A stretch of 36,039 nucleotides of DNA, from the NCBI GenBank assembly GCA_018396995.1, contig JAGTQB010000014.1:1-36039 (forward strand), written 5' to 3'. Below, in pieces: positions 5,720 to 26,384 of the stretch; the first letter of the stretch is position 1, and every line of letters begins with the position of its first letter. The translations under genes and the position numbers were made by a program. The notes below the pieces were generated by a model. That model was not told the origin of the DNA, did not search any database, and saw nothing but the letters and a program-made list of their open reading frames with translations. The stretch is from Candidatus Bathyarchaeota archaeon. Lineage in GTDB: Archaea; Thermoproteota; Bathyarchaeia; Bathyarchaeales; DTEX01.

Positions 5720-6423
5720 TTCTCACACCACGCATAACCTTCGTTAAGTATCTGGCCTAAAATCTTTGTTGGTAAGCCAGAACAGACTATTGTTCCGTTC
5801 ATTAGCACATGTGCCAATTTAGCGTCAATGTATTGGAGAATGACCCCTAGATGCGTAATTATTAATGCTGAACGGTTACGTAAAGTCTCATTTATAACCG
5901 TACCTAAAATCCTTAAGTTCTCTACATCAACACCAGAGTCGGGCTCATCAAGTATAATAAAGTCGCCACCATGGGCTAAAACCTGTAGGATTTCAGACTT
6001 CTTAATCTCTCCACCTGAAAATCCTAGGTTTACGTCTCTTTCAAGGAAGCTTTGCGGGAACTTAACCTTGTTAAGCAGATCGATGATCCTTTTCTCGTCT
6101 GGCGTTAAATGTCTCAGGATTTGACCGAGCTTAACGCCCCTAATTGCTGGCGGATGCTGGAAAGCTACACTTATACCCATCTTAACCCTTTCATCGGTAG
6201 GGAGGTCAGTTATATCTTTACCCTTAAAGAATATTCTTCCGGAAACAATTTTATAGGCTGGAAAACCTAGGAGAGACATCACTAGCGAGCTCTTCCCAGA
6301 GCCATTGGGCCCAAAAAGTACGTGAACCTCGCCCTCAGGTATCCGTAAATTAACGCCATTCAATACTCTTTTACCAGATACCTCCACACTTAAGTCATGT
6401 ATCTCAAGTATATTGTCTGTCAT
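5683..6423 (-). CDS. sufC: SufC, Fe-S assembly ATPase
   Basis: A 246-residue ABC-type ATPase that powers cluster assembly on SufB. Visible motifs are Walker A GPNGSGKS (38-45), a Q-loop at Q89, signature FSGGE (135-139), Walker B FIILDEPDSG (155-164) and switch H191. The FSGGEIKKSEILQ pattern is typical of SufC rather than of transporter ATPases, and there is no permease nearby. It is first in the sufCB operon. The ATG at 6423 follows an AGGG site 8 bases upstream. A TATA-like box and a 12-base palindrome lie upstream, inside the edge of a transposon remnant. Confidence 0.93.
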   Translation of the reverse strand: MTDNILEIHDLSVEVSGKRVLNGVNLRIPEGEVHVLFGPNGSGKSSLVMSLLGFPAYKIVSGRIFFKGKDITDLPTDERVKMGISVAFQHPPAIRGVKLGQILRHLTPDEKRIIDLLNKVKFPQSFLERDVNLGFSGGEIKKSEILQVLAHGGDFIILDEPDSGVDVENLRILGTVINETLRNRSALIITHLGVILQYIDAKLAHVLMNGTIVCSGLPTKILGQILNEGYAWCEKCIQARIERCEL

Positions 6424-6460
6424 AATCGATACCCTATTTCCTCAATATTGAAGAAGAACG

Positions 6461-6472
6461 CGTTAATTAACG
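6461..6472. promoter_or_regulatory. Perfect palindrome in the sufCB promoter region
   Basis: CGTTAATTAACG is a perfect 12-base palindrome lying 38-49 bases before the sufC ATG. An A/T-rich box (TTTTAATTATTA on the minus strand, 6480-6491) lies roughly 20 bases further upstream, so the palindrome sits close to the expected transcription start. That is where an archaeal repressor would bind. The regulator is unknown, and an A/T-rich 12-mer could arise by chance. Confidence 0.35.
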
Positions 6473-6484
6473 TTTCCCTAATAA

Positions 6485-6749
6485 TTAAAAGGACTGTCTA
6501 CAGGTTGTTTTTTTATTTATTTGGGATATTTCTATGAATTTCGGGTTTAGTCCCAGGTATCTTGCCGTGAGCATGTATGCGGATGCTGTGTTTGTCTAAT
6601 CCTAGCTCCCTGGATAAGCGGTTGCCAACCACGGATGTATAGGCTGGATCAACCAAGTACGCTTTGAAACCGTACTTCAAAGCCATGACAACCGAACGGT
6701 AGAGTCTACCGCCACTCTTCGCCGATGGCTCTGGGGATCCAGCGACCCC
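6485..6749 (-). pseudogene. Decayed TnpB (IS605/IS1341 OrfB) C-terminal fragment
   Basis: The minus strand encodes GRLYRSVVMALKYGFKAYLV, then DPAYTS, then LGLDKH, and after a shift of frame TASAYMLTARYLGL. Together this matches the C-terminal RuvC-like end of archaeal TnpB proteins (VDPxxTS and GLDKHTASAY motifs). The junction reads CACAGC where CACACAGC would keep frame, so a two-base deletion broke the gene. The shifted frame ends at the TAA at 6485-6487 and the unshifted one at 6513. A stop at 6750-6752 and non-coding sequence precede the fragment, so the N-terminal ~300 residues are gone. It is a dead remnant, and its 3' edge overlaps the likely sufC promoter. Confidence 0.7.
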
Positions 6750-6759
6750 CTAGAGCCAT
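6725..6759. repeat. Strong hairpin beside the TnpB remnant
   Basis: An 8-base stem (ATGGCTCT at 6725-6732 with AGAGCCAT at 6752-6759) is extended by GGGG/CCCC with a single bulge, around a loop of about 9 bases. A second hairpin follows at 6780-6798 (ACGGGT with ACCCGT, 7-base loop). Both are far more stable than the surrounding A/T-rich DNA. They may be insertion-sequence end structures or part of a guide-RNA-like region, or may act with downstream T-runs as a terminator for the PfkB gene. Confidence 0.5.
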
Positions 6760-6802
6760 AAGCGGGGGAACGGGGACAAACGGGTGGGGTGAACCCGTGC
6801 CC

Positions 6803-6838
6803 AGAAAAAACCAAAACAGCCAAAAATAACTAAAATAA
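6803..6838 (-). terminator. T-rich tracts downstream of the PfkB gene
   Basis: On the minus strand, 27-62 bases past the PfkB stop, there are several T runs, including runs of five and six T. Oligo-T runs are the core of archaeal intrinsic terminators. The hairpins at 6725-6798 lie just beyond. Together with the TnpB remnant this accounts for the 6424-6864 gap. Confidence 0.35.
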
Positions 6839-6864
6839 CTTAGCTAATGGACACGGGCAACCAC

Positions 6865-7788
6865 TCATTTAATATAGTCCATTATTCTTTTCTGCATTCC
6901 CCCCTCCTTCAACCCAATGACATAGTTAATTACCTCGTCAACCCCTTTAAATTTCAGATTTAGGAGCTTGCTGAATCCCCAACCAGTACATTTTATACTT
7001 GAGATAACTGATGCTACAGTCACAGATTTCATTAAGTCGCCTGTCTGCTTATAGGCTGCTAGAAAGGAGCCGCACCACGTATCCCCAGCGCCAGTTGTAT
7101 CTACAACCCTCTCGACAGGTATCCTTAATGCTGGAACGAGCTGTATATCTCCATCCCTATTAACTATTGCTCCCAGATCACCCAACGTTACAACTAGAGT
7201 TTTAGACTCTAAAAGCTTTAGAGCCGTCGCTAGGCTCCTCGCATTTGTTAGAGCCTTTGCCTCAGAATCATTCACGATGAAGAAATCTACCTTTGAAGCT
7301 ATCTCCCTAAGAACATCTTTGTTCACACCCTTAATATATCCTATCCAAGTATTAACCGATATTTTTACTTCAGGCTTCTTCTCCCTAATTAAATCAACAA
7401 TCTTCTTAACCCTTGGAGGCGAGAGAGGGGAAATATGCACCATGCTCCCAGAGCTAAAAACTTCTACTGGAATTAGTAGTGGCGATATCCTTAGCCCAGA
7501 ACCATATTTCGCCTCCAGATACTTTGCCTCCCACCGCTCATTATACCTTATATTGAACCTCGTTGAGGGGGCACTTGAGATCTTTATAAACCTCTTGGAG
7601 AAAATATCAAGAACCTCTAAAAAGGGATAATCCTTACCTACAACAGAAATTAAATAAACATTCTCTAATAGAGTTTTAGCAGCTATAGCTGCATAAAGAG
7701 CTGCTCCTCCAGGTTGTAGATTAGATCCATTGATATTATGAACTTTATCAATTGAAACATGACCAATAAAGAATAGCCCATCAATCAT
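6865..7788 (-). CDS. PfkB-family sugar/nucleoside kinase
   Basis: A 307-residue ribokinase-fold kinase. The N-terminal substrate region has a GG pair at 27-28 (QPGGAALYAA). The C-terminal PfkB signature is DTTGAGDTWCGSF (230-242), with D236 the expected catalytic base and GAGD the anion hole. ATP-dependent phosphorylation of a sugar or nucleoside is expected, but the substrate cannot be read from motifs. It diverges from the ECF transporter/AIR-synthase-like pair across a 184-base spacer. A nucleoside substrate would suit that context, but this is only a hint. The ATG at 7788 has no strong Shine-Dalgarno site. Confidence 0.85.
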   Translation of the reverse strand: MIDGLFFIGHVSIDKVHNINGSNLQPGGAALYAAIAAKTLLENVYLISVVGKDYPFLEVLDIFSKRFIKISSAPSTRFNIRYNERWEAKYLEAKYGSGLRISPLLIPVEVFSSGSMVHISPLSPPRVKKIVDLIREKKPEVKISVNTWIGYIKGVNKDVLREIASKVDFFIVNDSEAKALTNARSLATALKLLESKTLVVTLGDLGAIVNRDGDIQLVPALRIPVERVVDTTGAGDTWCGSFLAAYKQTGDLMKSVTVASVISSIKCTGWGFSKLLNLKFKGVDEVINYVIGLKEGGMQKRIMDYIK

Positions 7789-7910
7789 ATTAAAATCCCA
7801 TTTTCCTTTCTAATTTTCATCGATTTTAAAGAACATTGATTATGGGAAGATATACTCAACTGTATTATCTAATACTATTTTTCTGCCAGCTTATTTTGTT
7901 AATGAGAAAA

Positions 7911-7918
7911 GTTTAAAT
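7911..7918 (+). promoter_or_regulatory. TATA-like box of the ECF S-component operon
   Basis: GTTTAAAT preceded by GAGAAAA has the look of an archaeal BRE plus TATA element. Transcription would start near 7938-7942, inside the palindrome at 7921-7945, about 30 bases before the ATG at 7973. Confidence 0.55.
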
Positions 7919-7920
7919 GT

Positions 7921-7945
7921 TTATGGATGGATAATCCATCCATAA
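7921..7945. promoter_or_regulatory. 12+1+12 perfect inverted repeat, candidate operator
   Basis: TTATGGATGGAT (7921-7932), one A, then the exact complement ATCCATCCATAA (7934-7945). Each arm contains a GGATGGAT-like direct repeat. It starts 3 bases after the TATA-like box and covers the expected transcription start, the usual position of an archaeal repressor operator. It could control uptake of the substrate handled by the following two genes. No regulator gene is adjacent. Confidence 0.6.
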
Positions 7946-7972
7946 CGGAAATTCCAGAAGGAAGAATCATCT

Positions 7973-8461
7973 ATGTCGCCTGAAAAAGGCAATTATTCAA
8001 AGACTCGTTTAATCTCCGAGACAGCGCTTTTCTCCGCGTTAAGCGGTGTAGGTGCCATGATTCCTGTTCCAAGCCTGGTTGGCTCAGTGGCTTTAGACTC
8101 CTTTCCAGGATATTTCATAGCCCTTTGGAGAGGCTCCTTAAGTGGTGCTTTAGTTTGCGCCATTGGGCATTTACTTTCTGCATGGAGGGCGAGTTTTCCT
8201 CTGGGTTATTTGCATGTTCCAGTAGCGCTGCTGATGGCGTTGGTGGGAGCCACAACCGCAGCAGTAAAGAGAAAAATAGGTGTGATTGCTGGTTTAACCG
8301 CTGGAATCTCTATAAACACTGCAGGAGTTGTTCTCGCCGTGCCCACTATGGGATGGGGAATCTTACCGATCTTTACACCAATTCTATTTGTAGCTTCTTT
8401 AATTAATGCAGCAATAGCAGGAATAATCTATGAAGCCATAAAAAGAATCATGAAAAGTTAA
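7973..8461 (+). CDS. ECF-type transporter S component, candidate alpha-ribazole transporter (CblT-like)
   Basis: A 162-residue integral membrane protein with about five to six helices, Gly/Ala-rich loops and a basic C-terminus (EAIKRIMKS), in the style of vitamin-binding S components of energy-coupling factor transporters. The start ATG at 7973 follows AAGGAAG. The next gene, 30 bases downstream on the same strand, is an AIR-synthase-like protein. In Firmicutes the alpha-ribazole transporter CblT is paired with the AIR-synthase-like kinase CblS, so the same job is proposed here by context. The shared EcfA/EcfT energising subunits are not in the window. Thiamine-precursor or other vitamin uptake remains possible. 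Confidence 0.6.
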   Translation: MSPEKGNYSKTRLISETALFSALSGVGAMIPVPSLVGSVALDSFPGYFIALWRGSLSGALVCAIGHLLSAWRASFPLGYLHVPVALLMALVGATTAAVKRKIGVIAGLTAGISINTAGVVLAVPTMGWGILPIFTPILFVASLINAAIAGIIYEAIKRIMKS

Positions 8462-8491
8462 AGTTAGAGTTTTCATGTTAAGTGAGCAATT

Positions 8492-9280
8492 ATGCTCCGA
8501 AAAATAAGCAATGAAAATTCGTCTTCCATATTTTCATATAGGGACGTGTTAATTAAACCATTATCAGACGACAAGTTTCTAGTTGTAGGCTGTGATTCTT
8601 CAGGATCCGTGGGTCCGAAGCCTGAGGACTTGATCAGAGTTAGCGGTGAGGTTCTTGGAAAATTCATTGTAAGAACAGCTCTTATGGAGATCCTAGCCGT
8701 AAGAGCAAAACCGTTATGCATTGCATGTGGTTTAGGGGTAGAGCCAAAACCTACCGGAGCTAGCATCCTTAGAGGCATAAAAAGAGAAATGAGAAAGGTG
8801 GGGTTAAATCCAAAGTGTGACCTAGTTATTAGCACGGAAAAGAATTTCAGCACCATTCAGACTGGAATTGGTGTCGCCGCTATTGGGCTCGTTGAGAAAA
8901 GCGAGCTGCTTATAGGAAAATGTGAAAAAGGTGACACGGTGATAGGAATAGGTTTACCTTCAGTAGGAATGGAAGTCATTGAAAATGAACGGAAAAACGC
9001 GATAGCTGACCTTGAGGACCTACTTAAGTTGTTATCTATGACACCGTTAGGTTTTGTACACGCAATAATACCCGTAGGTTCAAAAGGGATAGGCTATGAA
9101 GTCAATGTTCTTGCTAAGGAATCAAAGTTAAAGTTAAGATTTCGTGAGCAAGTGCCAGTGAATCTAGATAAATCCGCTGGGCCGAGTACAGTTATATTAG
9201 CCGCTATTAAAGAAGACTATTATAGAACATTAAAATCATTATTTAAAAAGCCGATATATGAGGTAGCAACTTTAATTTAA
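8492..9280 (+). CDS. AIR synthase-related (PurM/ThiL-like) protein, candidate alpha-ribazole kinase (CblS-like)
   Basis: A 262-residue protein of the PurM/ThiL/SelD fold superfamily. Supporting segments are VVGCDSSGSVGPKP (an early metal/ATP Asp region), VRTALMEILAVRAKPLCIA (the dimer/ATP helix with the ALMEILA pattern) and IGVAAIGLV. It is shorter than PurM and lacks the canonical ThiL and PurM signatures, so it is not an obvious purine or thiamine enzyme. It follows the ECF S component in an apparent operon (ATG at 8492, GTGAG upstream). CblS, which phosphorylates alpha-ribazole in some Firmicutes, belongs to this AIR-synthase-related group, and CblS-like function is inferred. A dedicated nucleoside kinase would let the cell salvage the lower base of cobamides used with MtrH. 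Confidence 0.55.
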   Translation: MLRKISNENSSSIFSYRDVLIKPLSDDKFLVVGCDSSGSVGPKPEDLIRVSGEVLGKFIVRTALMEILAVRAKPLCIACGLGVEPKPTGASILRGIKREMRKVGLNPKCDLVISTEKNFSTIQTGIGVAAIGLVEKSELLIGKCEKGDTVIGIGLPSVGMEVIENERKNAIADLEDLLKLLSMTPLGFVHAIIPVGSKGIGYEVNVLAKESKLKLRFREQVPVNLDKSAGPSTVILAAIKEDYYRTLKSLFKKPIYEVATLI

Positions 9281-9417
9281 AATTTGTTCGCTTTTAAACG
9301 GAATAGAATTGTTTAGGAGGAAGTCGTTTAGTTCCAGTATAAAATGGGGACAGATTTTCTATAAAGATTTTTATTAAAGTAAATGAGCGCAATTATTTAT
9401 AAGTTGTATTTGTCGAA

Positions 9418-11127
9418 TTGGTGAGGCTTACTGATTTGAGGAGCGATATCGTTAAGTTTGGTGTTGAAAGAGCCCCACATAGGGCTATATGGAAGTGTCT
9501 AGGAGTTACAGATGAAGATTTCAACAAGCCATTTATCGGTATAGCGAATAGTTTCACAGAGCTTGTTCCTGGGCACATGCACCTAGATAAGCTTGTGGAA
9601 TATGTTAAGGCAGGTATTAGAGCTGCTGGCGGAGTCCCATTTGAATTCAACACAATCGCGATATGTGATGGTTTAGCCATGGGCCATAAGGGTATGCATT
9701 ACTCGCTTCCCTCTAGGGAGATAATAGCTGATTCAATTGAGGTTATGGCTGAAGCATACAATTTCGATGGGCTGGTTCTATTAACAAACTGCGATAAAAT
9801 AACGCCTGGCATGATTATGGCCGCTGCCAGACTGGATATTCCGGCGATAGTTGTAACTGGTGGACCAATGCTTTCTGGCAGGTACGGGCGTAGGCTTATT
9901 GATGTTACAGCGATATTTGAGGCTATAGGCGAATACTCTTCTGGAAAAATGAGTCTGGAGGAGTTGAGGAACCTTGAAGAATATGCGTTTCCAAGCTGCG
10001 GCTCATGTAACGGAATGTACACGGCTAATACGATGGCATGTATAGCTGAGGCTATGGGTCTATCCCTCCCTGGCTGTGCAACTGCCCTGGCAGTTTCATC
10101 TAAGAAAGCCAGAATAGCTAAGAGAAGCGGGGAAAGAATTGTAGAGATGGTTAAGGAAGATCTTAAGCCAAGCATTATTCTGAAAAGAGAAGCATTTGAG
10201 AACGCTATAGTGGTTGATGCAGCTTTAGGCGGATCAACAAACGCTGTCCTCCACTTAAAGGCTATAGCAGAAGAGGTTGGCGTAGATCTTCCATTGGAAG
10301 TCTTTGATAAGGTTTCTAGAAGTGTTCCACATATATGCGATATGAGACCAAGTGGCCCCCATGATATGGAGGATCTTGATGCAGCTGGCGGGATACCAGC
10401 AGTTATGAGTATCCTCCGCGATAAGATCCACTTAGATGCTCTTACAGTTACTGGTAAAAGCGTCGGCGAAAACATTAAGGATGCTAAGGTTTACGACTGG
10501 GAGGTTATTAAGCCCCCCTCAAACCCAGTCCATAGGGAAGGTGGAATAGCAATTCTTTTTGGAAACCTTGCTCCTAGAGGAGCCGTCACAAAAGTTACGG
10601 CGATATCACCAAAAGCGCTCGTATTTAAAGGCCCGGCTAGAGTATTTGATTCAGAGGAGGAGGCGATGAAGGCCATCTTGAATAAAGACATTAATCCCGG
10701 TGATGTAATCGTCATCAGGTATGAAGGACCTAAGGGGGGACCTGGGATGCGCGAGATGCTCTCACCAACGGCGGCCATAGTTGGGATGGGGCTGAGCGAG
10801 TCCGTGGCGATGGTTACTGATGGACGTTTTTCAGGAGCGACGAGGGGCCCATGTATTGGACATGTTTCACCAGAGGCTGCTCAAGGTGGGCCCATAGCTG
10901 CGCTTAGGGATGGAGATATAATATACATTGATGTTCCTGGTAGGAAATTAAACGCCGAGCTCAGCGATGATGAGATTAATAGGCGTCTCAAGTCATGGAA
11001 GCCTAAGCCGCCAAGAATATTTAAGGGATATTTAAGGAGATACTGGTATTTTGTGCACTCGGCTGATAGAGGTGGCGTATTAGGGCGCCAGCCACAATTC
11101 TCAGAGCTGGAGGTGAACAACAGTTGA
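9418..11127 (+). CDS. ilvD: Dihydroxy-acid dehydratase
   Basis: A 569-residue IlvD, which dehydrates 2,3-dihydroxy-isovalerate and dihydroxy-methylvalerate in valine and isoleucine synthesis. Motifs are [10 protein letters not shown] (C125), [15 protein letters not shown] (C194 and C197), [10 protein letters not shown], and [20 protein letters not shown]. The first region reads [10 protein letters not shown] without the extra Cys of [2Fe-2S] enzymes, so an oxygen-sensitive [4Fe-4S] form is likely. The start is uncertain: TTG at 9418, GTG at 9421, or TTG at 9436 (just before [10 protein letters not shown], with GGTGAGG upstream). A TATA-like TTTATAAG lies at 9396-9403. The 3' end overlaps the ACT-domain gene, placing amino-acid regulation in the same operon. 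Confidence 0.95.
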
Positions 11128-12723: not shown

Positions 12724-13620
12724 ATGGATTTGCCAGTTAAGCTGATTAAAAATGAGGATTCTTCTTCCCTCCTACTTGAAAGGATTATGTATACCAAGCG
12801 TTATACGCTCTTTCTTGACAGGAATAGGTGTGTTGGTTGCGAGCTCTGCGAGATAGCGTGCCCGAAGGAGGCAATTAAAGTTATTAAGCCATCCGAGTTC
12901 AAGGAGATGGAAGAGCCGCCAAAAAAGATAACCGCAACGGTCTCTGAGGATAAATGCAACTTCTGTGGTATATGCTCTGAAATATGTATATTTGGAGCCT
13001 TTAAGCAGAGCGTGGATGGGAAAGACTTTATTCCAGTGCTTGAGAGCGAAAGTTTTCCGAGAATAATCCATGAAGTTAAAATTGATGAGAGTAAATGTCC
13101 TCCAGGGTGCCGAATATGTGAGGAAGCTTGCCCATTACACCTCATAAATGTCAAATTTGACTCTGAGAGAAAAGTTATTAAGGTTGATGTTGATAGTGAA
13201 CATTGCCCCGGCTGTCGAATATGTGAAGCTAAATGCCCATATAACGCAATACATACAAGGAAAATAATCACTGGAGTCATAAAAATTAATGTAGATTTAT
13301 GCCCTGAAGGGTGTCGCTACTGTGTTGATGCTTGCCCGATACCAGATGTTTTATCTATTGCCGATGACGGGAAAGTTAGGGTTAATGAATCATTCTGTGT
13401 TTATTGTGGGGCATGCAAAAAAGCTTGTCCAGTTAATGGCGCCATAGAGCTCAAGAGAATCTCCTTCTATCATGCTCCAGTTAAATCAGGAGCTTGGAAT
13501 AAAGCATTAGAGAAGTTAACATCAACATTAGATATGAGTAAGGAGCTACGGAGCAAATCATTCCTTAAAGCTTATGACTCAGTTAAAAGATTGCATATGG
13601 GGGGTAAGACTAAGAGATGA
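12724..13620 (+). CDS. Polyferredoxin with six [4Fe-4S] motifs
   Basis: A 298-residue soluble polyferredoxin. Cysteine quartets are at 36/39/42/46, 78/81/84/88, 125/129/132/136, 161/164/167/171, 193/197/200/204 and 225/228/231/235. The third and fifth use the CxxxCxxCxxxC form (CPPGCRIC and CPEGCRYC), the rest CxxCxxCxxxC. There is no signal peptide or membrane helix. It overlaps the HdrA-MvhD gene by four bases (ATGA), so the two are translationally coupled, and it probably carries electrons to or from HdrA. MvhB-type polyferredoxins do this beside the F420-nonreducing hydrogenase in methanogens, but no hydrogenase gene is present here. The last ~50 residues are cluster-free. Confidence 0.88.
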   Translation: MDLPVKLIKNEDSSSLLLERIMYTKRYTLFLDRNRCVGCELCEIACPKEAIKVIKPSEFKEMEEPPKKITATVSEDKCNFCGICSEICIFGAFKQSVDGKDFIPVLESESFPRIIHEVKIDESKCPPGCRICEEACPLHLINVKFDSERKVIKVDVDSEHCPGCRICEAKCPYNAIHTRKIITGVIKINVDLCPEGCRYCVDACPIPDVLSIADDGKVRVNESFCVYCGACKKACPVNGAIELKRISFYHAPVKSGAWNKALEKLTSTLDMSKELRSKSFLKAYDSVKRLHMGGKTKR

Positions 13621-16055
13621 GCGTTAAATCTAATGTAGAAGATATTAGGATAGGCGTCTTCGTCTGCCACTGCGGTCTAAATATTGCTGGTGTGGTAAAC
13701 GTTAAGGAAGTGACGGAGTATGCGCGTACATTACCAAACGTTGTCTTCGCTATAGATAACAGGTACACGTGCTCAGATCCTGGTCAGGAAGAGATTAAGG
13801 ATGCTATAAAGAAATATAATCTTAACCGTGTTGTCGTAGCGGCATGCTCCCCCAGGATGCATGAATTCACCTTTAGGAGAACCATTGCCGAAGCTGGCTT
13901 AAATCCATATCTTCTAGAAATGGCTAATATAAGGGAACATTGTTCATGGGCCCACCCGAGCCACCCGAAGGAGGCAACCGAGAAGGCTAAAGAACTGATT
14001 AAGATGGCGGTTGCTAAGGCTAGGCTCCTAGCACCGTTAGAGCCAATAAAGGTTCCAGTTACATCAACAGCTCTTGTCATAGGTGGCGGGATAGCTGGCA
14101 TAAATGCCGCCCTAGAGTTAGCTGAAATGGGCTTCAAAGTCTATTTGCTTGAGAAGAAGGAGAGCATAGGCGGGCACATGGCACAGCTAGACAAAACATT
14201 CCCAACACTTGACTGCTCAATCTGCATTGAGGGGCCAAAAATGGTTGATGTAGCCAGACACCCAAACATCGAGATAATCTCATTCGCCGATCTAGTGAAA
14301 GTTGATGGCTATATTGGAAACTTTACTGTAAAGATTAGGAAGAACCCGCGGTATGTGCTTGAGGATAAGTGCACTGGCTGTGGTGAATGCGTTGCTGTAT
14401 GTCCAATCGAGTATCCTAATGATTGGGACATGAACCTAGGTGTTAGGAAAGCCATATCAGTGCCATTTCCACAGGCTGTTCCATTGGTCTATAGAATAAA
14501 CCGAGACTATTGCATAGAATGTTATAAATGTGTTGACGCTTGCGGTCCGCGCCAGGCAATAGATTTTGATCAGAAGCCTGAGGAGATAGAGCTCAAGGTT
14601 GGCGCAATAGTTGTTGCGACAGGATATGACATATATCTTCCTGAAGAGGGTAACTTATATGGGTATGGAAAGTACACTAATGTGATAACTAGCCTAGAGT
14701 TCGAGAGGCTAATTTTGGCTGCTGGTCCAACTGGCGGTCATGTTATTAGGGCATCTGATGGCAAACGGCCGAAGAGTGTAGTTTTCATACAGTGTGTCGG
14801 TTCAAGGGATGTAAACAAATACCCGTACTGCTCAAACTTCTGCTGCATGTACACGTTAAAGCATACTATTCAATTAAAGGAGCATTATGGAGCAGATATC
14901 GACGTCTATGTATTTTATATGGATCTACGAAGCCACTTCAAGGGATATGAGGAATTCTATCAGAGGGCTAGGGAGATGGGCGTAAACTTCATTAGGGGTA
15001 GGGTAACGAGGATAGAGGAGGATCCGAAGACAAAGAACCTCATAGTATACGCTGAGGACACGTTTCTTGGAGAGCCAATAACATTGGAGGCAGAAATGGT
15101 TGTTCTTGCAACAGCAGCTATTCCGACCAAGGGCTCAGAGGAGATTGCGAGGCTCTTGAATATACCGAGGGGGACGGATGGCTTCTTTCTCGAAAGCCAT
15201 CCGAAGCTAAAGCCATTGGACACGCCTGTTGATGGAATCTTCCTGGCAGGAGCCTGCCAGGGGCCGAAAGATATTCCATATAGCGTTGCACAGGGCTGTG
15301 GTGCGGCTGCAAGGGCTGCTACAATACTCTCAAAGCCCTATGTTACAATTGAACCAATAGTAGCTGTTGTTGACTCAGATAAGTGTAGGAATACTAAAGT
15401 TAAGTGTGGTATATGTGCAATGAAGTGTCCTTATGGTGCGATCACCGCGGATCCTGGTAAACCAGCGGTTGTTACGCCAGCTAAATGTCATGGTTGTGGG
15501 ACATGTGCCGCTGAGTGCCCAGCTGATGCTATAACCCAGATGCACTTCACAGATGCGCAAATACTTGCTCAGATAGATGCAGCGCTGGAGGAGAATCCTG
15601 AGGATAAAATCCTGGGTATATGCTGCAACTGGTGCGCTTATGCTGGCGCTGACTTAGCGGGGACAAGCCGGTTTGAGTATCCACCAAATATAAGGATGGT
15701 TAGGGTGATGTGCTCTGGACGCGTTGATAGAGACTTCGTGTTATATGCGCTTAAAAAAGGTGCTGGAATGATTTTGATAGGAGCGTGCCATCCATACGAC
15801 TGCCACTACATAGATGGTAACCTTAAGATGAGGGTTAGGATGGAGGCGTTGCAAAAAGCCCTTGAGAAGTTGGGCATGACGCCAGATAGGCTGAGAATTG
15901 AGTATGTCTCAGCGGCTGAGGGCATTAAGTTCGCTCAAATAGTGAAGGAGATGACGTCTAAGCTGAAGGAGCTGGGTCGAGAGAGAATAAAGGCTGAGAA
16001 CGAAAAGCTCCGCCCACACATAGAACGTATGCTAAGTAGAAAATCAGCGGCCTAA
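13617..16055 (+). CDS. hdrA: HdrA-MvhD fusion, flavin-bifurcating heterodisulfide reductase-type subunit
   Basis: An 812-residue fusion. The N-terminal HdrA domain has CHCG (17-20), the FAD Rossmann motif GGGIAG (156-161), the GGHMAQLDKTFPTLDCSIC segment (185-203), and ferredoxin clusters at C252-C255-C258-C262 and near C299-C309. Two further clusters lie at C590-C597-C600-C604 and C624-C627-C630-C634. From about 665 an MvhD/FrhD-type delta domain follows, with C669, C670, C673, C699, C724 and C729. HdrA bifurcates electrons at its FAD, and MvhD delivers them from an oxidoreductase such as a hydrogenase or formate dehydrogenase. The methanogen HdrA2 is a similar fusion. Partner HdrB and HdrC are absent from the window. 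Confidence 0.92.
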   Translation: MSVKSNVEDIRIGVFVCHCGLNIAGVVNVKEVTEYARTLPNVVFAIDNRYTCSDPGQEEIKDAIKKYNLNRVVVAACSPRMHEFTFRRTIAEAGLNPYLLEMANIREHCSWAHPSHPKEATEKAKELIKMAVAKARLLAPLEPIKVPVTSTALVIGGGIAGINAALELAEMGFKVYLLEKKESIGGHMAQLDKTFPTLDCSICIEGPKMVDVARHPNIEIISFADLVKVDGYIGNFTVKIRKNPRYVLEDKCTGCGECVAVCPIEYPNDWDMNLGVRKAISVPFPQAVPLVYRINRDYCIECYKCVDACGPRQAIDFDQKPEEIELKVGAIVVATGYDIYLPEEGNLYGYGKYTNVITSLEFERLILAAGPTGGHVIRASDGKRPKSVVFIQCVGSRDVNKYPYCSNFCCMYTLKHTIQLKEHYGADIDVYVFYMDLRSHFKGYEEFYQRAREMGVNFIRGRVTRIEEDPKTKNLIVYAEDTFLGEPITLEAEMVVLATAAIPTKGSEEIARLLNIPRGTDGFFLESHPKLKPLDTPVDGIFLAGACQGPKDIPYSVAQGCGAAARAATILSKPYVTIEPIVAVVDSDKCRNTKVKCGICAMKCPYGAITADPGKPAVVTPAKCHGCGTCAAECPADAITQMHFTDAQILAQIDAALEENPEDKILGICCNWCAYAGADLAGTSRFEYPPNIRMVRVMCSGRVDRDFVLYALKKGAGMILIGACHPYDCHYIDGNLKMRVRMEALQKALEKLGMTPDRLRIEYVSAAEGIKFAQIVKEMTSKLKELGRERIKAENEKLRPHIERMLSRKSAA

Positions 16056-17205: not shown

Positions 17206-17784
17206 TTACTTAGAGGTTATTGGCCAAATCCTATCAAAGTATATATTCTTTCCTCTGGCTGAGAGGGGTATGCCAAGTATTATTGTGGCATCTGGTATTA
17301 AATTCATCTTCATTGCCGCTGTTCCAACCCGATACATAACTCTATTGTCAATGTTTAGGATACTGGCAATCTTCACAGCGGATCCTATAGCTATGCCGAA
17401 GTTTATGGCCTTAAAGATGCATGTGGGTCCTTTAAAGTCATGCCCAGACCTTTTCTCCATTCCATCAAATTCCTTACAGTCCTTGTAGCCACATGCTCCG
17501 CAATTTAAGCCTGTACTTTTATCTCCCTTAACCCCTATCAAGAAAACAGCCTCTGAATCCCTAACGTTCTTTGCATCCCGCTTAAATAGATCTATTTTTC
17601 TTTCCTCCGCTATCTCCTCCATCACCTTGGCTATAGCATTCTTCTCCTCACCATAAACAATCAGTGTAAAAATATCGTTTATGCCATAAGCCTTCGGCGC
17701 AGTTCTAGCGGCAACCTGCATAAACCTTGCGGCATCAAAAATAGCTTGCCTCTCTCCCTCCTCACTTCTAATAATCGGGCTCAC
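17206..17784 (-). CDS. DUF2148 ferredoxin-like domain protein
   Basis: A 192-residue protein with the DUF2148 cysteine pattern GLNCGACGYKDC followed by a fourth Cys in GPTCIFK, forming a probable [4Fe-4S] site, within otherwise soluble alpha/beta sequence (IAIGSAVKIASILNIDNRVMY). Its function is not established. The GTG start at 17784 directly abuts the TAA of the radical SAM gene, with GGAGGAG six bases before it, so translation is coupled. It may supply electrons or a cluster to the adjacent radical SAM enzyme; this is inferred from neighbourhood only. Confidence 0.8.
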   Translation of the reverse strand: MSPIIRSEEGERQAIFDAARFMQVAARTAPKAYGINDIFTLIVYGEEKNAIAKVMEEIAEERKIDLFKRDAKNVRDSEAVFLIGVKGDKSTGLNCGACGYKDCKEFDGMEKRSGHDFKGPTCIFKAINFGIAIGSAVKIASILNIDNRVMYRVGTAAMKMNLIPDATIILGIPLSARGKNIYFDRIWPITSK

Positions 17785-18834
17785 TTAACACTCCTCCACC
17801 CGATCATAAGATTTACCAGCAATAATATAGTCTATGCCTATCTGCGCCATGATCTCCATAATATCCCTTTGTGAGGGTTTTCTCGGGAAGTTGTATATTG
17901 GGCCACGTGGCTCCTCGTTATAGTATGGTCTATTGCAGCCTGGGCAACCCGATGTCAAAAATGGCTCCCCGGAAAGAATTATCTTTTTTAGGTCTTCCCC
18001 CGAGATGCCGAAATCTATCAGCCGCCCATTCTTAAATCTCATTTTCTCATATCGTCCTAGAGAGCGTGTTATAATATAGTGGGCCACTTGAATCCTCCTA
18101 TATGAGTCGATCGGCGGCCTTGGATAATTCGCCATTCTTGTTCCAGGTATAGGCGTGAAGGCAAATACTGCTGGGAATACTCCCATATCATGGCATTTTT
18201 GAACCATATAGATAAATTCCTTCTCACTCTCACCTAAACCAGCTATTAGATGCGTTGTAACCCTGCCTCTACCAAGAACTTGGAGAGCGCTCCTCAGGGC
18301 CTCGAGGTGTCTGTCCCAGCGATATGGGCCCCCAGCTCCCTCACCCTTAACCTCAGAGAATATTTTTTCTGTGGCTGCATCTAATGCTATGCTCACCCTA
18401 TCGACACCAGCCTCCGCCAGCATTCTGATCCCCGTTGGGTTAAGGGGTTGGCATGAAACGGATATCGGAACATAACATTCGCTGTGAATACTTTTAACCA
18501 GTGATAGTATGTCATCCTGAACTCCGGGATAGTTTAGCGCTTGGATGCATACCCTCTCTATCTTACCATCCTCAAATGCCCTTTTAATGCCAGCTGTAAC
18601 ATCTTTAACCTCAAAGTCCGGCCATATAACCCTTGAGAGCATATCCGTTCTAGAGCTACTGCCCCTCGCCTGCGGGCAGAAAGCACAGTTCGCGGTGCAG
18701 CGTCCCTCAAAGTATGTGAGGAGATACGCTGTTGTTGGCTCAGCGTTAATTTTCCCCTCGCCCAGACCCAACACTATAGCTGTTCCAAGCGAAACCCTAA
18801 CCCTCTTAACCCTATCCCCTGAACTCACCGCCAT
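17785..18834 (-). CDS. Radical SAM protein, biotin synthase-related; candidate half of archaeal lipoyl synthase (LipS1/LipS2)
   Basis: A 349-residue radical SAM enzyme. The cluster motif CTANCAFC (C46, C50, C53) binds the SAM [4Fe-4S] cluster, and ARGSSSRTDMLSR and ISVSCQPLNPTG follow in the TIM barrel. The C-terminal motif SGCPGCNRPYYNEEP (C297, C300) looks like an auxiliary cluster site. It resembles the biotin synthase-related COG2516 group. Archaeal lipoyl synthase is made of two such biotin-synthase-like proteins (LipS1 and LipS2), and a second one lies at 21352. True BioB is unlikely because no biotin genes are near. ATG at 18834 with AAGGTG upstream. Which LipS it might be, and whether it is one, is not settled by sequence reading. 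Confidence 0.7.
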   Translation of the reverse strand: MAVSSGDRVKRVRVSLGTAIVLGLGEGKINAEPTTAYLLTYFEGRCTANCAFCPQARGSSSRTDMLSRVIWPDFEVKDVTAGIKRAFEDGKIERVCIQALNYPGVQDDILSLVKSIHSECYVPISVSCQPLNPTGIRMLAEAGVDRVSIALDAATEKIFSEVKGEGAGGPYRWDRHLEALRSALQVLGRGRVTTHLIAGLGESEKEFIYMVQKCHDMGVFPAVFAFTPIPGTRMANYPRPPIDSYRRIQVAHYIITRSLGRYEKMRFKNGRLIDFGISGEDLKKIILSGEPFLTSGCPGCNRPYYNEEPRGPIYNFPRKPSQRDIMEIMAQIGIDYIIAGKSYDRVEEC

Positions 18835-25478: not shown

Positions 25479-26384
25479 ATGTTTAGGTTTAGCAGGGAAC
25501 AGAAGATCTTCAATATCGCCGGGGTCAAGGTTGGAGGGCAGCCAGGCGAGCTCCCAACAGTGATGATAGGATCCATTTTCTATCATAAGCACAAAATAGT
25601 TTATGATGAGAAGACCGGGGAATTTGATAGACAGAAGGCTGAAGAGCTTTTAGTGAAGGAGAGGGAGATATCTGAAAGAACAGGCAACCCAAGGATAGTT
25701 GATGTCTGTTGCGGGTGGCCTCAGGCCTTTGAGAAGTTCATAGACTTTATCGCGAAGACGATTGATGGACCCTTTTCAATAGACGGAGTCACGGCTGAGG
25801 TGAGGATAGCGGGGGCAAAATATGTTGGGGAGACTGGTCTCTCAGACAGAGTTGTCTATAACTCCATCACACCTGAGGCAAAAGAGGAGGAAATCTTAGC
25901 CATTAGGGATGCTAAAATAAAGTCTGCGATACTCTTAACTGTCAATACGAAGAACCCAACGTTATCTGGTAGGCTACAGGTTATTGATAAATTGATTGAT
26001 ATAGCGAAAAGAGCTGGAGTTGAAAATATGCTAGTTGACACATGCGTCCTTGATATACCAGATCCAGGTCCAGTGAGCAAAGCAATTTACTATGTCAAAG
26101 AGAGATATGGTCTGCCAGCGGGGGCTGGGATACATAATGCTGTTGATATGTGGAAGAAAAGGCGCAAATTAGATCCAACCAAGTATATGCTGGCCAGCAC
26201 CGTGGCCAACATAACCTCTATAGTATCCGGGGCAAACTTCCTACTCTATGGGCCCATAGAGAATGCTGAGGTAACATACTTTACATGCGCATTAGCGGAC
26301 GCATACATGGCTTATAGCGTAAGGCAGGAGTATGGGGCGAAACCGCTGACAACAAATCATCCAATTTTCAAAGTCTTTCGCTAA
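25479..26384 (+). CDS. mtrH: MtrH, methyl-tetrahydromethanopterin methyltransferase subunit (solo)
   Basis: A 301-residue protein matching the MtrH subunit over its length: opening FSREQKIFNIAGVKVGGQPG, GSIFYHKHKIV, NPRIVDVCCGWPQAFEKFI, FSIDGVTAEVRI, and VDTCVLDIPDPGP. In methanogens MtrH moves the methyl group between methyl-H4MPT and the corrinoid of MtrA. The membrane subunits MtrA-G are absent here, as in several non-methanogenic and Bathyarchaeia-like genomes, where MtrH homologues are thought to pair with soluble corrinoid proteins. No corrinoid protein or MtaB/MttB gene is in the window. A GAGGCGCT site precedes the ATG. The cobamide-salvage-like operon at 8 kb suits its corrinoid need. 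Confidence 0.92.
   Translation: MFRFSREQKIFNIAGVKVGGQPGELPTVMIGSIFYHKHKIVYDEKTGEFDRQKAEELLVKEREISERTGNPRIVDVCCGWPQAFEKFIDFIAKTIDGPFSIDGVTAEVRIAGAKYVGETGLSDRVVYNSITPEAKEEEILAIRDAKIKSAILLTVNTKNPTLSGRLQVIDKLIDIAKRAGVENMLVDTCVLDIPDPGPVSKAIYYVKERYGLPAGAGIHNAVDMWKKRRKLDPTKYMLASTVANITSIVSGANFLLYGPIENAEVTYFTCALADAYMAYSVRQEYGAKPLTTNHPIFKVFR

Follow-up and report, generated by a model that had tools for sequence, protein, structure and literature searches.

The locus raises the question of whether an archaeon salvages alpha-ribazole with the two proteins that do so in bacteria, and how the genes would be controlled. CblT-CblS salvage of alpha-ribazole was reportedly described by Gray and Escalante-Semerena in 2010 for Firmicutes (Listeria, Geobacillus, Lactobacillaceae). 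In the literature that we found, alpha-ribazole salvage was a matter of bacteria only, mainly Firmicutes; a large survey of cobamide pathways left out archaea (PMC6461909). The window analysed here is a stretch of 36,039 nucleotides from a member of the Bathyarchaeia, for which the initial annotation had suggested a CblT/CblS pair. Sequence, gene pairing and genome context support that suggestion. We consider it very probable that the pair at 7973-9280 forms an archaeal cblT-cblS operon serving cobamide lower-ligand salvage, with an operator shared with other cobamide loci. From these data we infer alpha-ribazole as the substrate, the kinase activity and the direction of regulation. The features discussed below are as follows.

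6865-7788, minus strand: PfkB-family sugar/nucleoside kinase, divergent from cblTS (PF00294, E 9e-28)
7912-7919, plus strand: TATA-like element TTTAAATG, 5 nt before the operator core (6/8 match to TTTATATA, consensus match only)
7923-7943, no strand: candidate operator, perfect 21-bp palindrome ATGGATGGATAATCCATCCAT (none in shuffles; recurs at cobamide genes)
7973-8461, plus strand: cblT, ECF S component, probable alpha-ribazole transporter (PF12822, archaeal CblT profile)
8492-9280, plus strand: cblS, AIR-synthase-fold protein, probable alpha-ribazole kinase (tblastn, profile test, motifs, PurM-like fold)
25479-26384, plus strand: MtrH-family methyltransferase subunit, corrinoid-linked context, outside the operon (PF02007, E 2.9e-86)

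The S component and the AIR-synthase-fold protein

The genes cblT and cblS lie on one strand, separated by 30 bp. We judge them to be real genes because they are conserved as a pair in other genomes. The pair is kept in the nearest named relative at this locus, the Candidatus Bathyarchaeota MAG SKYB89 (L012; 71% and 66% identity), and is also found in several families of Thermoproteota, in Thermotogota and in Firmicutes. The divergent PfkB-family kinase gene, 134 bp from the palindrome, is not found at the corresponding place in SKYB89; its product could be a nucleoside kinase, a cobinamide kinase or a chance neighbour. A partial PfkB protein, weakly similar to it (38% over 84 aa), was observed near cblT and an RHH-fused CblS in another genome (L122). 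Elsewhere in the window, we observed a LipS2-type lipoyl synthase (355 bits, cut-off 270) and a DUF2148 ferredoxin-like protein (17785-18834 and 17206-17784) with an adjoining transaldolase-family protein. Within 12724-16055, a polyferredoxin gene precedes that of an HdrA2-type heterodisulfide reductase subunit (1115 bits against a cut-off of 1100), which has a fused FlpD/MvhD domain.

The first gene of the pair encodes 162 residues that matched Pfam ECF_trnsprt (PF12822) with E 6e-8 and 33.3 bits, above the cut-off of 30.7. A profile of archaeal CblT gave 74 bits for CblT of L. plantarum, 73 for that of Cytobacillus and 108 for that of Mesoaciditoga, as opposed to at most 10 bits for other S components; the B12-type S components of the host genome and of L. 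plantarum went unreported in this search. In sequence, the window S component thus resembles bacterial CblT more than it does the other S components compared, and this grouping rules against the transporter for another vitamin that the initial annotation had weighed. The host genome holds an ECF module, with EcfT at G000:C12:35672 and two ATPase genes in front of it, and CblT is predicted to be able to use this EcfA-EcfA'-EcfT module.

The second protein, of 262 residues, matched the N-terminal AIRS domain (PF00586) weakly, with 20.0 bits against a cut-off of 24. Together with the PF12822 match, this bears out the reading of the locus as an ECF S component followed by an AIR-synthase-like protein. 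The best NCBIfam match was ThiL, with 14.9 bits against a cut-off of 301, and SelD gave no NCBIfam match for this protein. In tblastn against plasmids, the protein matched plasmid pMF1298-5 of L. plantarum MF1298 (E 5e-26 over 94% of its length); genes of Listeria monocytogenes and Cytobacillus, each located among cob genes, were matched as well. A CblS profile built from archaeal proteins only was scored on bacterial homologues and on E. coli AIRS enzymes. It gave 171 bits for Listeria, 170 for L. plantarum, 156 for Mesoaciditoga and 125 for Cytobacillus, versus 5.6 for PurM, 4.8 for SelD, -0.7 for HypE and -1.2 for ThiL. The identities ThiL, SelD, PurM and HypE were rejected on these scores; the protein groups with neither ThiL nor SelD, the two possibilities raised earlier.

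The protein keeps the motifs C34-D35-S-S-G..GxK..D46 and STEKN..TxQTG, and further conserved CblS motifs are PVGSKG and KSAGP. Asp35, within C-D-S-S-G, is retained in all stand-alone homologues covering the position, window CblS included. An AF2 model made from a three-row alignment (pLDDT 80) adopts a PurM-like fold. Compared with the PDB, the model gave E values of about 1e-12 to HypE, ThiL, PurM and SelD, and its TM-scores to ThiL, SelD, PurM, PurL and HypE, about 0.55-0.69, place it about equally far from each. When the PDB was searched by sequence with the CblS profile, only repeat artefacts and a marginal PurM came up. The structural comparison with CblS, ThiL and PurM proposed in the initial annotation therefore yielded the PurM fold, but the fold alone cannot choose among these families, whereas the sequence profiles do: ThiL, SelD, PurM, PurL and HypE share the fold with archaeal CblS and have no subfamily-level sequence similarity to it. 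Bacterial CblS is an alpha-ribazole kinase (PMC6461909, PMC5064896), and we assign 8492-9280, from its sequence, as CblS and a probable alpha-ribazole kinase.

Gene neighbourhoods and the cobamide pathway of the host

Of 398 Thermoproteota genomes, 30 yielded a CblS domain, counting RHH-fused forms. Family f20, which belongs to another class of the phylum, has cblT-cblS and cobY-cobS in convergent orientation at three loci (L111, L114, L118). The order cobZ-cblT-cblS, divergent from btuF, occurs at L119; the pair of G022 is likewise divergent from btuF and lies upstream of a cobD-like gene, cbiB and a CbiZ-CobZ fusion of the CbiS type. Among bacteria, the pair ends a cobU-cobS-cobQ-cbiB-cobD cluster in Mesoaciditoga (Thermotogota; names read from translations). 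L. plantarum carries cobS downstream of the cblTS pair, and the pMF1298-5 operon was named cblT-cblS-cobS-cobC by the authors of that genome (PMC6722938). The CblS homologue of Cytobacillus lies within a cob operon, and in Listeria the CblS gene is followed by cobU and cobS. Two genomes (G032 and G038) hold CblS together with a weak CobT match, so CblS is not always a replacement for CobT.

Window CblS groups with SKYB89 and family f20 (100/99), apart from the CblS of most other Bathyarchaeia, and bacterial CblS branches are long in the tree. Among the 21 genomes of its family that were searched, the host is the only one with CblS. With its closest relatives including another class, the gene may be a recent acquisition, and the tree is most simply explained by lateral transfer within Thermoproteota.

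The host genome measures 1.46 Mb and is 98.5% complete; gene absences are based on family searches, and a gene scored absent could sit in a gap. CobT (PF02277), for which the initial annotation had advised a genome check, gave no match in the host genome (G000), with Methanocaldococcus jannaschii as a positive control. CbiC and CbiB also gave no match in the host genome, with positive control genomes. A PduO-type adenosyltransferase was not found there either, a weak negative since Methanocaldococcus too is without that type. The host keeps BtuFCD, CobS, CobY, CobZ, the ECF module and several corrinoid proteins; the BtuF, CobS, CobY-type guanylyltransferase and CobZ families are located on contig C3 (L029). 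Six B12-binding proteins scored above the cut-off, and several adjoin MtaA/UroD-like methyltransferase genes, as read by eye. The same genome has a further ECF S-component-like gene (L128 2208-2705) that adjoins genes for a corrinoid protein and a methyltransferase. The corrinoid-linked MtrH noted earlier was confirmed by a PF02007 match. The picture is that of a corrinoid auxotroph or salvager finishing the nucleotide loop from imported parts. The enzyme that supplies the phosphorylated corrinoid of CobY is missing from this picture: CbiB was not detected and no cobinamide kinase was identified. The btuFCD-cobS-cobY run includes genes for an asparagine-synthase-like protein without a glutaminase domain and a Dph6-like ATP pyrophosphatase (L029 2256-2939 and 2958-3920), which also occur in L009 and L011 beside a variant operator site. 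It is possible that these amide-forming enzymes substitute for CbiB or carry out a corrinoid amidation step.

In the proposed mechanism, CblT would import alpha-ribazole, or a related alpha-riboside, via the EcfA-EcfA'-EcfT module, and CblS would phosphorylate alpha-ribazole to alpha-ribazole-5'-phosphate without CobT. CobS would couple this product to the GDP-activated corrinoid from CobY, after which the 5'-phosphate would be removed by CobZ.

A palindrome at cobamide loci and the rival readings

The interval singled out by the initial annotation also contains the 21-bp palindrome, which was left unremarked there. It is located in the cblTS promoter, between the divergent PfkB kinase gene and cblT, and its 17-bp operator core, GGATGGATNATCCATCC, spans 7925-7941. 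None of the dinucleotide shuffles of the window reproduced the palindrome. Of 39 comparable promoters, most have a TATA-like 8-mer whose end lies 0-7 nt upstream of the palindrome; given this position, the candidate operator is expected to lie over the transcription start, in the manner of a repressor site. The core occurs in the whole host genome as two exact copies and one copy with one mismatch, versus 0.0003 and 0.015 expected. The three sites lie before cblT, between cobZ and the run btuF-btuC-btuD-(asparagine-synthase-like)-(Dph6-like)-cobS-cobY, and 1 bp upstream of the start codon (ATG) for a 200-aa S-component-like protein, which is followed by a DUF4430 protein. The 200-aa protein gave no Pfam match and was assigned to B12-type ECF S components by eye; the pair that it forms with the DUF4430 gene resembles the ECF transporter beside cblTS in L. 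plantarum, in which an S component lies near DUF4430.

Allowing up to two mismatches, we found the site in 55 of 61 genomes, host included, with a reversed-pattern control near zero; most of these sites precede cobamide genes, and some two-mismatch sites inside genes are probably due to chance. Sites read by hand in relatives precede btuF, cbrT-like S genes, cobZ, cobD-like and cobN-like genes, and cblT. Operator sites were located at L029 7761-7777, at L030 8721-8737 and at many relatives' loci (L036-L075), in Bathyarchaeia and in another class. In the cblTS promoter, the start region would be covered by a palindromic operator common to btuFCD-cobS-cobY/cobZ and the B12-type ECF S gene. Since the operator is common to three loci, a putative DNA-binding protein probably represses all three at sufficient cobamide.

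Three candidates for this control were rejected. Riboswitch control of cblTS was dismissed as the leader had no Rfam match: Rfam models, such as that of the cobalamin riboswitch, gave none up to E 1 within 6000-10500. The HTH-DUF7839 protein, encoded beside a site in G032, is absent from the host and from most operator-carrying genomes, which argues against a general regulator. RHH-fused CblS was discarded as the binder of the GGATGGAT operator: the operator is present in genomes without this fusion, and the adjoining cblT promoters hold another palindrome. Concerning HTH-DUF7839, the regulator gene of one genus also has a GGATGGAT-like site some 60 bp in front of it (L067 622-1437; relatives L083-L092), and in other genera the upstream sites are degenerate.

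Other readings of the pair and its promoter have to be weighed against the salvage operon. The pair could salvage another alpha-riboside, for instance of a purine or a different benzimidazole, so that the resulting cobamide would carry another base. The sequence does not determine the base, and we regard this as unlikely yet worth keeping in mind; such a reading modifies the main explanation and keeps its mechanism. A kinase acting on the corrinoid, i.e. a cobinamide kinase supplying CobY without CbiB and CobU, would fill a formal gap, with CobY present and CbiB undetected, and would suit the operator that cblS has in common with btuFCD-cobS-cobY. We find it very unlikely all the same: CblS homologues occur alongside CobU (Listeria, Cytobacillus, Mesoaciditoga) and CbiB (G022, Mesoaciditoga), where a second cobinamide kinase is unneeded, a small S component is paired with stand-alone CblS throughout, and the reported function of bacterial CblS is that of an alpha-ribazole kinase.

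Salvage of thiamine or another vitamin by a ThiL-like kinase and a thiamine-type S component seems extremely improbable to us. The NCBIfam match to ThiL falls far below its cut-off and ThiL is one of many equal fold matches, but ThiL has a negative score on the CblS profile, the S component has no match among the other S components tested, and the cblTS promoter bears the cobamide operator. The operator role of the palindrome is itself predicted from sequence, so the palindrome might be a chance or unrelated repeat, leaving the operon unregulated or otherwise controlled. We give this little credence in view of the excess of observed over expected copies, the location of all three at cobamide genes, and the recurrence of the site across genomes against the reversed-pattern control. 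The alpha-ribazole salvage operon with a shared operator is thus our preferred reading.

RHH-fused CblS and relation to known systems

Twenty CblS homologues, one of them cut by a contig end, carry an N-terminal ribbon-helix-helix domain (RHH; PF01402, CopG) and form one clade (95/93); examples are L009 10810-11748, L011 10583-11512 and L010 503-1441. No RHH-CblS was found in the host genome. The position of Asp35 is Ser or Thr in all RHH-fused paralogues. RHH-CblS is encoded divergently beside cblT at L009, L011, L103, L105, L109 and L122, and the cblT promoters there lack the GGATGGAT operator. Of 19 RHH-CblS genes, 13 have upstream, at a distance of 17-42 nt from the start codon, a site that agrees with CRYATTACAWWTGTARTRYG in at least 16 of 20 positions; this count is descriptive and not a test, the consensus having been drawn from a few of the same sites. 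From sequence features, we infer that RHH-CblS is a kinase-derived sensor-repressor and a candidate alpha-ribazole-sensing family. Since many RHH-CblS genes are not adjacent to cblT, other genes may be under the control of their products. We lean, with some reserve, towards two alternative controls of alpha-ribazole salvage in Thermoproteota: the genome-wide operator GGWTGGATNATCCAWCC with its putative repressor, or a kinase-derived RHH repressor that arose by duplication, fusion and loss of the aspartate, and that, bound to a palindrome of its own, would sense alpha-ribazole or the phosphate of this compound.

ThiR-type archaeal regulators consist of an HTH fused to an enzyme domain. Like them, the RHH-CblS of relatives would combine an enzyme-derived sensor with a DNA-binding domain; it differs in that RHH takes the place of HTH and an alpha-ribazole kinase domain that of a thiamine enzyme, and in being absent from the host. 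To our knowledge, Bathyarchaeia were unknown when Rodionov et al. (2003, J Biol Chem 278:41148) reportedly proposed a CBL-box for a hypothetical archaeal B12 regulator. Like the present operator, the CBL-box is reported to be a DNA site located upstream of archaeal genes for the transport and synthesis of B12. The two may be the same element, and the inclusion of cblTS among the targets appears new.

With the Firmicutes CblT-CblS system, the archaeal pair shares the two families, their order, the linkage to cobS, the motifs and a genome without CobT. It differs in its archaeal host, in CobY and CobZ in place of CobU and CobC, and in a promoter that has a DNA palindrome and matched no Rfam model, that of the cobalamin riboswitch included; in some archaeal relatives, control is apparently exerted by the CblS-derived RHH protein instead. 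The cblTS pair is an archaeal member of a known salvage system, and its regulation is the more novel part; the arrangement of a shared operator or RHH-CblS was not found in the literature searched. For archaeal B12 regulation, these data offer a handle, namely a concrete candidate operator, target genes and a candidate sensor-repressor family. The presence of cblTS in Bathyarchaeia and other Thermoproteota implies that such anaerobic archaea acquire ready-made B12 side pieces from neighbours, on which the host would depend for its B12 building blocks.
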